Below, in pieces: positions 27,664 through 34,198 of a stretch of DNA of 64,000 nucleotides. A program made the position numbers and the translations under genes. The number at the start of each line of letters is the position of its first letter. Within the stretch, counting starts at the first letter, position 1. Origin of the DNA: Halomonas alkalicola (GTDB lineage Bacteria; Pseudomonadota; Gammaproteobacteria; Pseudomonadales; Halomonadaceae). The notes under the pieces are model-generated. The model was given only the letters and a program-made list of their open reading frames with translations. It made no database searches and was not told where the DNA came from. Location of the stretch: assembly GCF_030704205.1 (NCBI RefSeq), contig NZ_CP131913.1:496001-560000 (forward strand). The letters run 5' to 3'.

Positions 27664-28035
27664 ATGGCCAAGGTCGTGGTGGTGGACGATGAACCCAACA
27701 TCGTCCTGTCGCTGGAGTTCCTGATGCAGCAGGCAGGTTTCGAGGTGGTCACCGCCGAGGATGGCGAGAGCGCCCTGGCGCGGGTGGCCGAGGGCACCCC
27801 GGACCTGGTCCTGCTGGATATCAGCCTGCCGGGTATCAGCGGCTTCGACGTGCTGGAACGCCTGCGCGCCGATCCCGGCCACGCCCGCCTGCCGATCATC
27901 ATGCTCACCGCCCACGGACGCGAGGTGGAGCGCGAGAAGGGACTGGCGCTGGGCGCCGACGATTACATCACCAAACCCTTCTCCACCCAGGCGCTGGTCG
28001 ACAAGGTCAAGGCGCTGCTCGCCGAGGTCTCCTGA
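27664..28035 (+). CDS. Stand-alone response-regulator receiver protein
   Basis: This 123-residue protein consists only of a CheY-like receiver domain. The acidic pocket is VVDDEPN (Asp9-Asp10), the phosphoacceptor Asp is in LVLLDISLPG (about residue 53), Thr is in MLTAHGR and the conserved Lys is in YITKPFS (about 104). There is no output domain. The ATG follows GGAGAACGCC. The stop codon overlaps the start of the next gene (TGATG), so the two are translationally coupled. Its likely partner is the hybrid transporter-kinase 2.3 kb downstream, which has no receiver of its own. Confidence 0.9.
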   Translation: MAKVVVVDDEPNIVLSLEFLMQQAGFEVVTAEDGESALARVAEGTPDLVLLDISLPGISGFDVLERLRADPGHARLPIIMLTAHGREVEREKGLALGADDYITKPFSTQALVDKVKALLAEVS

Positions 28036-30095
28036 TGGCTCGACGTCTCTCCGGGCTGCCCCGCCGCCAGCGGTTGATCGGCCTCTGGCTGCTGCTCAGC
28101 GGCATCAGCGTCTTCGGCGGCGCCACCTTCGCCCTGTGGCTCGACACCCTCTTCCAACCCCAGGGACTGGCCCGCCTGGTGCTGTGGCTGGGCTGCTTCT
28201 CGGGCGGCGGCACTATCTTCCTGGTCGGCCTGCTGCTGGAGCGCCAGCTGTTCACCCCGCTGCGCCACCTGCAGGTGCAGCTCGCGCGCCTGGTGGCCAA
28301 CCCCGACGCCCGGGAGGACTACCCCCCCGAGGGCTGGCTGCGGGCGCTGGGCCCCGATCTGGTGAGGGTGCGCGATGCCTGGCGGGCCGACCGCGGCCGC
28401 CTGGCCACTGCCCACGCCGAAGGCGCGCGCAGCGCCGCCCGCATCCGCCAGGAGCTCGAGACCCTGCTCCAGGTGCTCGACACCCCGCTGCTGCTTTGCG
28501 ACCAGCACCGTCGGGTGCTGCTCTTCAACCAAGCGGCCGAGACACTCTTCGAGGATCATCACGGGCTGGGGCTGGGCAAGCGTCTCGAGAGCCTGCTGCC
28601 CGCCACCAGCCTCCAGGATGCCCTGGGCCAGCTGCCCCGTGACGGCTCGCCGCGGGAGGTGCTGGTGCCCTGTGACGAGCGCTGGCTGCGCGCCGTGCTG
28701 CGCCGGGTGCCCGGCAGCCATGGCGAGACCCTGCTCACCCTGAGCGATACCACCGCCGCCTGGACCAGCGAGATGGGTGCCCGCGCCGAGCTGCTCGACA
28801 GCCTGCCCCGCCTGCGCCGCCACAGCGCCAGCCTGACCAGCGCGGCCGATGCCCTGAGCTCCCTGGGCAATGCCTCGGGGGAGATGCGCCAGCGCCTCGA
28901 GCGGGTGATCGACGAAGAGAGCCAGTCCCTCGGCCAGGACATCGAGCAGCTCGCCGCCCTGGTGGAACAGATGCAGCACGAGGGCGAACGGCTGGTGCCG
29001 CTATGGTCCAACGACCTGTGGCAGGCCCTCAACGAGCGTCGCAACGGCCAGGTCACGGTGGTGCCGGTCGGCATGCCCGCCTGGTTCAAGGGCGACGCCA
29101 CGGCGCTGCTGGTGCTGCTGGGCTCCCTGATCGACAGCCTCCAGCAGCAGCGCAGCCCGCAGGGTCTCGAGGGCGAAGTCTGCCTGGGCAATAAGCGGGT
29201 CTACCTGGACCTGATCTGGCGCGGGGCACCGCTCAGCGAGCGCCAGCTCACCGAGTGGCAGCAGCAGCGCCTCGACGACCTGCCGCTCTCGCCGCGGGTC
29301 GCCGACGTGCTGCGCCAGCATGCAAGCGACGCCTGGAGCCTGGCCGATGACGACGGCGTGCATGCCCGCCTGCGCCTGCCGCTGCCCGCCACCGAGCGGG
29401 TCGGGGCGCCGCGCCCGGCCACCGAGCCGCGTCCGGAGTTCCACGACTTCGGCATCGCCGAGCTGCCCCCGCCGGACGCCGAGCTCGCGGCCCGCCCGCT
29501 GCGGGCCCTGGAGGTAGTGGCCTTCGACACCGAGACCACCGGCCTGGAACTGCGGCGCGGCGACACCGTGATCAGCATCGGCGCCTGCCGGGTCGTCAAC
29601 GCCCGGCTGCTGGCCAGCGAGGTGTTCGACATGCGGGTCGATCCCGGCAAGCCGATCCCCCCGGCCAGCACCGCGATCCACGGCATCACCGACGCCGACG
29701 TGGCGGGCGCCCCGCCGCTGCCGGTGGTGCTGCCGCGCTTTCGCGACTACGTGGGCGACGCGGTGATCCTCGCCCACAACGCCGCCTTCGACCTGCTCGC
29801 CCTGCAGCCGCCGGGGGCCGGCGTGACCCTCGACATGCCGGTGCTCGACACACTGCTGATCTCGCGGGCCCTGGATGCCAGCCTGGATGGCCACGACCTC
29901 GACAGCCTGGCCGAGCGCTACGGACTGAGTTTCCCGCCGGGCACGCGGCATACCGCCCTGGGCGACGCCCGGGTCACCGCCGAGCTGTGGCTGGCCCTGC
30001 TGCCACGCCTGGAGGCCCGCGGCATCGAGACCCTGGAGCAGGCGCTGGCCCTGCAGAACAGCGCCCTGACCAAGGAGGATGCCTGCGCCTCATGA
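28035..30095 (+). CDS. Membrane sensor-like protein fused to a DEDDh 3'-5' exonuclease
   Basis: This 686-residue protein has two N-terminal membrane helices (about residues 14-37 and 47-69), a HAMP/linker-like region, and a PAS-like segment (LLQVLDTPLLLCDQHRRVLLFNQAAETLF, about 145-175). A histidine-kinase-like region follows (about 250-450), in which I find no phosphoacceptor H-box and no intact ATP-binding N or G boxes (GDATALLVLLGSLIDSLQ is where an N box would be). The C-terminal domain (about 494-665) is a DnaQ-type exonuclease with all five catalytic residues: Asp498 and Glu500 in FDTETTG, Asp586 in HNAAFD, His639 and Asp644 in HTALGD. Similar exonucleases occur next to acetate-uptake and acetyl-CoA synthetase loci in pseudomonads. 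The substrate and the reason for membrane anchoring are unknown. Confidence 0.85.
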   Translation: MARRLSGLPRRQRLIGLWLLLSGISVFGGATFALWLDTLFQPQGLARLVLWLGCFSGGGTIFLVGLLLERQLFTPLRHLQVQLARLVANPDAREDYPPEGWLRALGPDLVRVRDAWRADRGRLATAHAEGARSAARIRQELETLLQVLDTPLLLCDQHRRVLLFNQAAETLFEDHHGLGLGKRLESLLPATSLQDALGQLPRDGSPREVLVPCDERWLRAVLRRVPGSHGETLLTLSDTTAAWTSEMGARAELLDSLPRLRRHSASLTSAADALSSLGNASGEMRQRLERVIDEESQSLGQDIEQLAALVEQMQHEGERLVPLWSNDLWQALNERRNGQVTVVPVGMPAWFKGDATALLVLLGSLIDSLQQQRSPQGLEGEVCLGNKRVYLDLIWRGAPLSERQLTEWQQQRLDDLPLSPRVADVLRQHASDAWSLADDDGVHARLRLPLPATERVGAPRPATEPRPEFHDFGIAELPPPDAELAARPLRALEVVAFDTETTGLELRRGDTVISIGACRVVNARLLASEVFDMRVDPGKPIPPASTAIHGITDADVAGAPPLPVVLPRFRDYVGDAVILAHNAAFDLLALQPPGAGVTLDMPVLDTLLISRALDASLDGHDLDSLAERYGLSFPPGTRHTALGDARVTAELWLALLPRLEARGIETLEQALALQNSALTKEDACAS

Positions 30096-33074: not shown

Positions 33075-34198
33075 CCTCGCCTGGCGCGACGCTTCAGGGC
33101 CCTGATCTGCTGCAGGTCATGGCGCAGCAGCAGGCGCTGGTCCTCGCCGAGGCGCGACAGGTCGACCCAGCCATCGGCGCCGCGTCCCGACCTGACGCCC
33201 CGGCACTGCTCCTCCAGCAGCAGCCCCTGCAGGCGCTCCAGCGCCGCGGTCAGGGCGCGACTGGTCTCGGCGGAAAGCGCCTCCTTCAGCACCAGCACCG
33301 CCAGCCGCTCCCGGGTGTCGACCTCGCGCACCCCATGGCGCAGCGAGAGCAAGCGGACGGCGGCCACCAGCGGCAGCACCGCCTGCTGCTTGAGGTTGAT
33401 CGCCCGCTCATGGGGCGCCCCGTCGAGTGACCCCGAGAGTCGACCGAAGCGGTCCAGGGCCACCGGCAGCTCGTCGAGCAGCGCGCCCATCTCGTCCAGG
33501 AAGAGCCCGGCCTGGGGCATCAGCCGCGCCACGCGGTCGGCCAGTGCCTCCGCCAGCGTGCCCTCCCCATGCACGGCCCGGAAGTCGAGCAGGATGTTGG
33601 CCTGCTGCACCCGCTTGACCCGTCGCCCGGCGGTCCAGATAGCCAGCTGCTCGCTCCATTCCGAGAGCCGCTTGCGCCACATGGGCCAGCGCGCCATCAC
33701 ATGGCCGCTGCACAGCGGGATACCGGCCTGGTCCAGCCGGTCGGTGAAGCGCTCGCCCAGCACCTGGAAATAGCCGTCGACCTCGGTGTGGCGGCTGTCC
33801 GGATAGTCGGCAATGATCATGCCGTTGTCCTGGTCGGGGCCGAGCAGGCTCTCCTGGCGAGCCCCGGAGCCCATCACGATGACGCAGTAGGGCACCGGCG
33901 GCGTGCCCCACCCCTGTCCCTCCATCTCGCTCAGGGCCAGCTGGATGGCGCGCCGGTAGAGCCAGTCATTGTGGTCGCTGATCAGCTGGCTGATGCGCCA
34001 GGCGGGGAGGTCGAGGCGCATCAGCGCCTCCGCCAGGCGAGGCTGCCAGGCGTGGGCCTCGGGCAGGGTCGGCGCCGGGCCCAGCTCGGCAAGGGCGTCG
34101 CGCAGCGGGGCCAGCAGCGGCGGCAGCCGCGCAGGGTCGGGATGCTCCTCGTGGGCGAACAGCGAACGCCACGAGGAGGCACGGTGAAGCAGGCGCAT
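33071..34198 (-). CDS. DUF294-type nucleotidyltransferase without CBS/cNMP domains
   Basis: This 375-residue protein has the GlnD-like nucleotidyltransferase motif GSGARQESLLGPDQDNGMI (about residues 112-130) with the catalytic GS and the D-x-D pair. A DUF294_C helical domain follows (about 230-360). Larger relatives carry N-terminal cyclic-nucleotide and CBS sensor domains; this one begins with only about 80 residues before the transferase. It lies beside the transporter-kinase and exonuclease genes, an association also seen around actP loci in pseudomonads. The target of nucleotidylation is unknown. The start at 34198 is chosen over a longer frame that enters the intergenic region. Confidence 0.82.
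   Translation of the reverse strand: MRLLHRASSWRSLFAHEEHPDPARLPPLLAPLRDALAELGPAPTLPEAHAWQPRLAEALMRLDLPAWRISQLISDHNDWLYRRAIQLALSEMEGQGWGTPPVPYCVIVMGSGARQESLLGPDQDNGMIIADYPDSRHTEVDGYFQVLGERFTDRLDQAGIPLCSGHVMARWPMWRKRLSEWSEQLAIWTAGRRVKRVQQANILLDFRAVHGEGTLAEALADRVARLMPQAGLFLDEMGALLDELPVALDRFGRLSGSLDGAPHERAINLKQQAVLPLVAAVRLLSLRHGVREVDTRERLAVLVLKEALSAETSRALTAALERLQGLLLEEQCRGVRSGRGADGWVDLSRLGEDQRLLLRHDLQQIRALKRRARRG

Follow-up and report, generated by a model that had tools for sequence, protein, structure and literature searches.

A receiver-linked SLC5 histidine kinase cluster of Halomonas alkalicola with a membrane-anchored pseudokinase-exonuclease as candidate output

We describe a cluster of five genes in the 3.61 Mb single-contig genome of Halomonas alkalicola, spanning positions 27664-34198 of a 64,000-nucleotide window (bases 496001-560000 of that genome). 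In order, the genes encode a stand-alone receiver (REC), a membrane-anchored protein ending in a DEDDh exonuclease (EXO), a small two-helix protein resembling CbrX (SMALL), a histidine kinase fused to an SLC5 symporter-like part (HK) and a nucleotidyltransferase (DUF294). We put the probability at roughly one half that the cluster represents a third type of SLC5 histidine kinase system, in which phosphorylated REC docks on a pseudokinase within EXO and the output is a nuclease, not a DNA-binding regulator. A more detailed version, which we advance with somewhat greater reserve, is that a dead kinase fused to a nuclease reads a single-domain receiver phosphorylated by HK and so gates a membrane 3'-5' exonuclease, with a GlnE-like nucleotidyltransferase as second arm, providing nutrient control without a DNA-binding regulator. 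The known outputs of SLC5 kinases are transcription factors, and the module suggests one branch acting through a nuclease; if true, a carbon-source signal would control a nuclease and not a transcription factor, and nutrient control would operate by regulated nucleic-acid trimming. A search of the open PubMed Central (PMC) literature, outside which most subscription journals fall, returned no description of the five-gene module, and as far as that literature shows EXO is a new type of protein.

EXO (28035..30095, forward strand) is a 686-residue protein that shares 99% identity with a Halomonas sp. PGE1 protein and combines membrane helices, a PAS domain, a degenerate histidine kinase and a DEDDh 3'-5' exonuclease. 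Pfam recovers the exonuclease (RNase_T, E 1.8e-25) and, weakly, the PAS domain (PAS_4, 23.3 bits, the cut-off being 23.1), and nothing else. The structure model (mean pLDDT 83.5, pTM 0.44) comprises two membrane helices, a long helix, a PAS domain, a helical hairpin, an alpha/beta domain and the exonuclease. The membrane segment (residues 10-88, 28062..28298) consists of two almost loopless helices predicted at residues 10-40 and 45-88, with hydropathy peaks at about 12-40 and 44-70, and is followed by the PAS domain (residues 148-238, 28476..28748, from the structure model and a Pfam match at 148-240), a DHp-like hairpin lacking a phospho-acceptor histidine at position 258 (residues 240-316, 28752..28982), a degenerate ATP-binding (CA) domain placed by profile alignment to the HK core (residues 321-452, 28995..29390), a linker motif, RPEFHDF (29430..29450), that is invariant or nearly so in alignments A1 and A2 and reads RPEFYDF in most relatives, and the exonuclease domain itself (29502..30014), all on the forward strand. 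The four acidic residues and the histidine of a DEDDh exonuclease (D498, E500, D586, H639 and D644) are all present and invariant in the 59 sequences of alignment A2; together with the RNase_T match and the predicted helices, they bear out the preliminary description of a membrane protein ending in such a nuclease. Three relatives of family f53 (L192, L193, L194) keep the membrane, PAS and dead-kinase parts but no longer show the DEDDh motifs, and neither REC nor HK was found alongside. Second EXO copies in L039 and L040 have an SSF symporter-like neighbour (27-32% to the symporter of locus L155, described below), without REC or HK.

Judged by its sequence, the middle of EXO is a degenerate (pseudo-)histidine kinase of DHp and CA fold that has lost its catalytic residues. 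Its alignment with the kinase part of the HK family (hhalign) reaches a probability of 98.9% and an E-value of 2.8e-17 over 204 columns. Histidine is found at position 258, the phospho-acceptor site, in none of the 59 family members, which carry Glu (36), Pro (9), Asp (4), Gln (3), Arg (3), Ile, Asn, Val or Met (one each); the positions facing the two N-box asparagines of HK hold Asn in 0/59 and 2/59, and the G1 aspartate position is Trp in 59/59. EXO therefore lacks both the phospho-acceptor histidine and the N and G boxes of an active histidine kinase. Single sequences of the EXO family match HisKA below the cut-off (best E 9e-4, L027), and Foldseek searches with the EXO model rank histidine kinases first, with DivL (4q20) among the matches. 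The label "kinase-like" given to EXO in the preliminary description was thus correct, and profile alignment and residue counts sharpen it to degenerate histidine kinase.

The neighbouring kinase presents the opposite picture. HK (30342..33074, forward strand, 910 residues) carries HisKA and HATPase_c domains, and a comparison with solved structures aligns its residues 8-535 with chain 10ed_A, annotated "histidine kinase", at E 7.6e-81; Pfam reported neither Response_reg nor SSF for it. An SLC5 part fused to a kinase, as in SLC5/STAC histidine kinases, is therefore present and a receiver is absent, as had been described earlier for an SSS-type kinase. HK shares 44% with the CrbS-like protein of the same genome over residues 8-679, a likeness that includes the SLC5 part and extends past it to residue 679, into the stretch before the kinase where a STAC domain may lie. 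The phospho-acceptor His685, both N-box asparagines and the G1 and G2 residues examined are invariant in 29/29 relatives. With these residues kept in HK, the kinase residues lost in EXO and the nuclease intact, one core is kept alive and its neighbouring relative dead; the loss of phospho-acceptor and ATP motifs in EXO points to receiver reading rather than to phosphotransfer.

Conservation was assessed in several samples. EXO relatives were sought in a class sample of 369 genomes and a family sample of 81, and a scan of named-species genomes contributed the best 80 of at least 572 confirmed EXO relatives, ranked by similarity to L038 and hence a non-random sample. The 95 distinct loci annotated comprise the window, 18 class-sample loci and 76 named ones (80 minus 4 duplicates), with profiles built from the first members; 45 of the 95 have more than 7.5 kb of sequence on both sides and form a well-covered subset. 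Neighbour-gene counts are based on directed comparisons only, and the Fisher values for co-occurrence of EXO and HK ignore kinship.

These data support the five genes as a conserved unit far outside the genus, not a local arrangement. The five families recur together in Gamma- and Alphaproteobacteria, in Magnetococcales and in a few other metagenome-assembled genomes (MAGs), and EXO itself has relatives in the Ectothiorhodospiraceae, Competibacteraceae, Rhodospirillales and Magnetococcales, and in a handful of MAGs that carry the labels Desulfobulbaceae and Nitrospirae. Of the well-covered loci, 42 have REC, 40 HK, 40 SMALL and 28 DUF294; the complete set is present in 24. The family sample contains EXO in 38 genomes, this HK type in 38 and a short DUF294 in 35: all three occur together in 34, EXO with HK in 3, HK with DUF294 in 1, EXO alone in 1 and none in 42. 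Considered as a pair, EXO and HK are both present in 37 of the 81 genomes, each occurs singly in one, and both are missing from 42. In the class sample the N-terminal 482 residues of EXO have relatives in 16 of the 369 genomes at E 1e-10 and a 14-row EXO profile has matches in 21 at 1e-30; EXO and HK occur together in 15 genomes, EXO only in 6 and HK only in 5 (21 with EXO, 20 with HK). The preliminary description had named confinement of this co-occurrence to the genus as grounds for abandoning its proposal, and the gene set is found beyond the genus among both the 95 loci and the class and family genomes. The same co-occurrence contradicts the idea that the genes are neighbours by chance, or a functionally unconnected grouping peculiar to Halomonas, for which we found no supporting point and which we regard as wholly improbable.

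REC (27664..28035, forward strand) is a stand-alone receiver of 123 residues (Pfam Response_reg, E 9e-32) with all phosphorylation residues present, and its stop codon shares one base with the EXO ATG. Among family receivers scoring above 170 bits, to which the counts are restricted (a weaker one, in L111, scores 116 bits), the acid-pair residue D10, the acceptor D53 and K105 are each kept in 89/89 and T83 in 86/89, in a numbering with one leading residue; the alpha-1 face is near-invariant, with I14 and S17 in 89/89. REC stands directly upstream of EXO in 77 of the 90 loci with room. Six loci have HK on the far side of EXO, and in four of them (L037, L041, L078, L080) REC still directly precedes EXO, the two genes overlapping or nearly so; in L115 and L118, both with HK on EXO's other side, it does not. 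Four clusters (L078, L080, L115, L118) contain two REC-type receivers, one by HK and one by EXO or DUF294, so that kinase and nuclease may have separate receivers. An apparent fusion of the REC and EXO genes in L060 was rejected, the single open frame crossing a stretch of N.

Several observations weigh against a nuclease output. EXO occurs with neither REC nor HK in the surrounding sequence, despite room, in five loci (L036, L039, L040, L086, L112), and 6 of the 21 EXO-bearing class genomes have no HK, three of them being L192-L194 with their degenerate nuclease and the remaining three having EXO at contig ends or with DUF294 alone alongside. Conversely, 5 of the 20 class genomes with this HK type hold REC, SMALL and HK together without EXO. 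Foldseek superpositions of EXO on histidine kinases have root-mean-square deviations of 15-25 Å for one flexible-domain model of pTM 0.44, and the kinase-like fold is for this reason argued mainly from the profile match; the VIA structure list for EXO contains nuclease chains only and hence speaks neither way on the kinase part. An analysis of covariation between REC and the two DHp hairpins (65 loci, effective number 32) is given no weight, since its positive control, REC with HK, failed; EXO gave no excess. No acetyl-CoA synthetase gene (acs) and no symporter of the kind described below adjoin the cluster in the window. Finally, the Pseudomonas putida gene PP_0353, labelled a target gene and encoding a short soluble relative, has, in the passages cited from PMC9927547, a pyruvate phenotype and no other.

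Since all five HK-only class genomes hold REC, SMALL and HK, REC belongs to HK first. The earlier proposal of a receiver split off from its kinase is supported in this form: a competent stand-alone REC accompanies this HK type wherever the neighbourhood is readable, even without EXO. REC might then partner HK alone, as phosphate sink, feedback element or scaffold, with EXO co-transcribed yet governed by the membrane and by its own PAS domain, and with the dead core serving as a dimerisation or coupling device. The retention of REC and SMALL beside HK in 5/5 loci without EXO, the 13 of 90 loci in which no REC lies directly upstream of EXO and the ability of degenerate DHp/CA pairs to act as dimerisers all favour this alternative; it accounts poorly for REC keeping its place before EXO in four of the six loci where HK has moved across, and for the almost invariant REC docking helix, and we judge it unlikely, if the strongest of the competitors.

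Another possibility is that HK signals to a distant transcription factor of CrbR or CbrB type and that the stand-alone REC is a side branch. The SLC5 kinases known so far work through such regulators (PMC7918813 and PMC5715377, in the passages cited), and NtrC-type or LuxR-type regulators lie less than 10 kb away in a few loci. The cluster itself contains no LuxR-type or NtrC-type regulator, its HK having the stand-alone receiver as neighbour and lacking the C-terminal receiver of the hybrid kinase CrbS. Against a distant target stands the fact that both candidate regulators of the H. alkalicola genome adjoin SLC5 kinases of their own. At locus L155 a second SLC5 kinase, with PAS domains, has a LuxR-type (CrbR-like) regulator alongside, together with genes for an SSF symporter (for which ActP is a mere label) and its DUF4212 partner, for an AMP-binding, acs-like protein, for a short DEDDh exonuclease and for a DUF294 protein that has cNMP and CBS domains; at locus L157 a third is preceded by a CbrX-like open reading frame (ORF) and followed by a sigma-54 type regulator. 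The names CrbS, CrbR, CbrA and CbrB are given here by architecture and neighbours. Because CbrA/CbrB-type and CrbS/CrbR-type systems are present with their own regulators, the HK of the cluster is a third SLC5-kinase system of this genome, distinct from the known acetate system.

A phylogeny of the SLC5 parts (SH-aLRT, quick search) also argues against a distant regulator. CbrA-type and CrbS-type rows each form one clade at 100, and the receiver-linked kinases stand apart from both types, at 94 for most; L030 and L195, the latter on a long branch, diverge basally. Second copies in L187 and L033, labelled CrbS by a score rule, nevertheless group with CbrA at 100. We consider signalling to a distant regulator improbable. 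Kinases without EXO are scattered inside the receiver-linked group, so that EXO was lost, or gained, several times. In L044, L047 and L121 the HK beside EXO is without an SLC5 part and without SMALL.

Some further features of the two comparison loci may be recorded. At L157 the CbrX-like ORF, the CbrA-like kinase and the sigma-54 type regulator occupy 6150-10822 (genome 1896150-1900822), and similar pairs occur in L187 and L033; CbrAB is termed unique to Pseudomonadaceae in a passage of a review (PMC8871633). At L155 an IS66 transposase (7690-8994) separates the DUF294 gene from the symporter genes, and an identification of the symporter's small partner as YjcH was dropped, as Pfam gives DUF4212 and not DUF485. 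The CrbS-like ORF (L155 12090-16036, genome about 1452089-1456035) is frame-broken, its ATP-binding part continuing in another frame.

A Pfam scan and ORF coordinates agree with the preliminary description for REC, EXO, HK and DUF294; for SMALL (about 30129-30322, forward strand), a two-helix membrane protein gene, the CbrX-like position before HK stood but the intact ORF did not, its halves lying in different frames at a run of C. Of 30 family loci examined, 28 carry an intact copy; the H. alkalicola one is broken, and none was found in L207. Two hydrophobic stretches are present in 70 of 71 matches outside the window. The coincidence of a broken SMALL and a broken CrbS-like ORF may reflect run-length errors of the assembly, or real breaks. 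Counting the broken copy in the window, SMALL occurs in 69/69 loci with an SLC5-bearing HK, and it is absent in 3/3 whose HK lacks that part (L044, L047, L121), the distribution to be expected if it were a subunit of the transporter part. Apart from the break in the window, the family consists, like CbrX, of small two-helix proteins encoded directly before an SLC5 kinase. Because its profile gave no match at E 1 to the CbrX-like ORF of the same genome (L157), Pseudomonas CbrX lying outside the comparison, the likeness to CbrX is one of position and topology.

DUF294 (33071..34198, reverse strand, with an upstream start at 34291 also open) is convergent with HK, the stop codons overlapping, and encodes a GlnE-like nucleotidyltransferase. 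Pfam assigns it DUF294 and DUF294_C only, while this genome encodes two longer DUF294 proteins that carry CBS as well as cNMP domains, in agreement with the earlier remark that the usual sensor domains are missing here. Its structure model resembles the adenylyltransferases GlnE and DrrA and shows the expected GS...DxD motif and fold, although a sequence search against solved structures returned no credible match; on this model it is probably a protein nucleotidyltransferase. Its role as an output of REC, drawn from gene order only, is the weakest step of the proposal. DUF294 and EXO could instead form a writer and eraser pair, in which a nucleotide is added to a protein or RNA end and removed by the exonuclease, with REC and HK setting the balance. 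We know of no DEDDh enzyme that removes AMP from protein, and DUF294 is missing from 17 of the 45 well-covered loci. The likeness of the model to GlnE (an adenylyltransferase/deadenylylase) and DrrA is in favour of such a pair, as is the adjacency of soluble DUF294 and DEDDh versions at L155, in the CrbS/CrbR locus of the same genome, and in Pseudomonas (PMC9927547, in part). In the passages cited from that source, however, a pyruvate phenotype follows deletion of PP_0353 and not of PP_0354, and we consider a writer and eraser pair improbable.

Taken together, a signalling route with a nuclease output could run as follows. HK, aided by SMALL at its transporter part, would respond to a carbon source; a small carboxylate, for instance acetate, is the probable signal, as suggested by the linkage of acs and symporter genes in part of the loci: acetyl-CoA synthetase is near the cluster in 13 of the 95 and an SSF symporter with DUF4212 in 7, and L195 has SMALL, HK, REC, EXO, DUF294 and the SSF symporter/DUF4212 pair in one run. 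HK would then autophosphorylate and hand its phosphate to REC, a transfer proposed because the residues are intact and the genes linked. In the same membrane, phosphorylated REC may dock on the DHp-like hairpin of the dead core of EXO, by analogy with the docking of phosphorylated DivK on DivL; the idea derives from the near-invariant REC docking helix and the adjoining dead core fused to an intact nuclease. Docking and the PAS domain would jointly set the position or access of the exonuclease, which would trim RNA or DNA 3' ends, and DUF294 might act as a second arm, regulated or parallel. A pseudokinase reading a receiver is a wiring known mainly from DivL, and the unexplained DUF294/RNase_T targets of acetate systems (PP_0354/PP_0353) gain a relative whose nuclease is physically coupled to the signal, opening their role to tests in a harmless halophile.

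Sites resembling sigma-70 promoters were absent from the cluster (0, against 0.2 in shuffled sequences), and its two terminator-like sites are no excess over the 1.5 expected. A further DEDDh exonuclease gene of the window (36089-36877, RNase_T E 3.6e-22), likely rnt, lies 2 kb from the cluster, with no relation to it seen.

Among known systems, CrbS/CrbR (MxtR/ErdR) shares with the cluster an SLC5 kinase, DUF294 and DEDDh exonuclease (RNase_T) genes and a tie to acetate activation and a symporter. CrbS, however, is a hybrid with PAS domains that acts on the LuxR-type CrbR, whereas HK has neither PAS domain nor receiver and REC stands alone; the CrbS/CrbR exonuclease is short and soluble, whereas EXO has gained membrane, PAS and dead-kinase parts; and the associated DUF294 has the cNMP and CBS domains that the DUF294 of the cluster has lost. 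CbrX-CbrA-CbrB likewise places a small two-helix protein ahead of an SLC5 kinase without receiver, and CbrX packs on the transporter part of CbrA (PMC13022988, in the passage cited), but CbrA has a PAS domain and acts on the NtrC-type CbrB, and neither exonuclease nor DUF294 is involved. RpuS/RpuR, as far as the cited passages of PMC9100948 go, also employs an SLC5/STAC kinase for a small carboxylate (pyruvate), in this case with a LuxR-type regulator and no nuclease. The fold of GlnE and DrrA is like that of the DUF294 model, with no sequence similarity detected in the solved-structure search. In DivL/DivK, as in the arrangement proposed here, a PAS-bearing pseudo-histidine kinase reads a phosphorylated single-domain receiver, DivL using for this its PAS domains and the core that was once catalytic (PMC4211667, in part); unlike EXO, DivL controls the kinase CckA, has no enzyme domain and has no tie to a transporter-like kinase.

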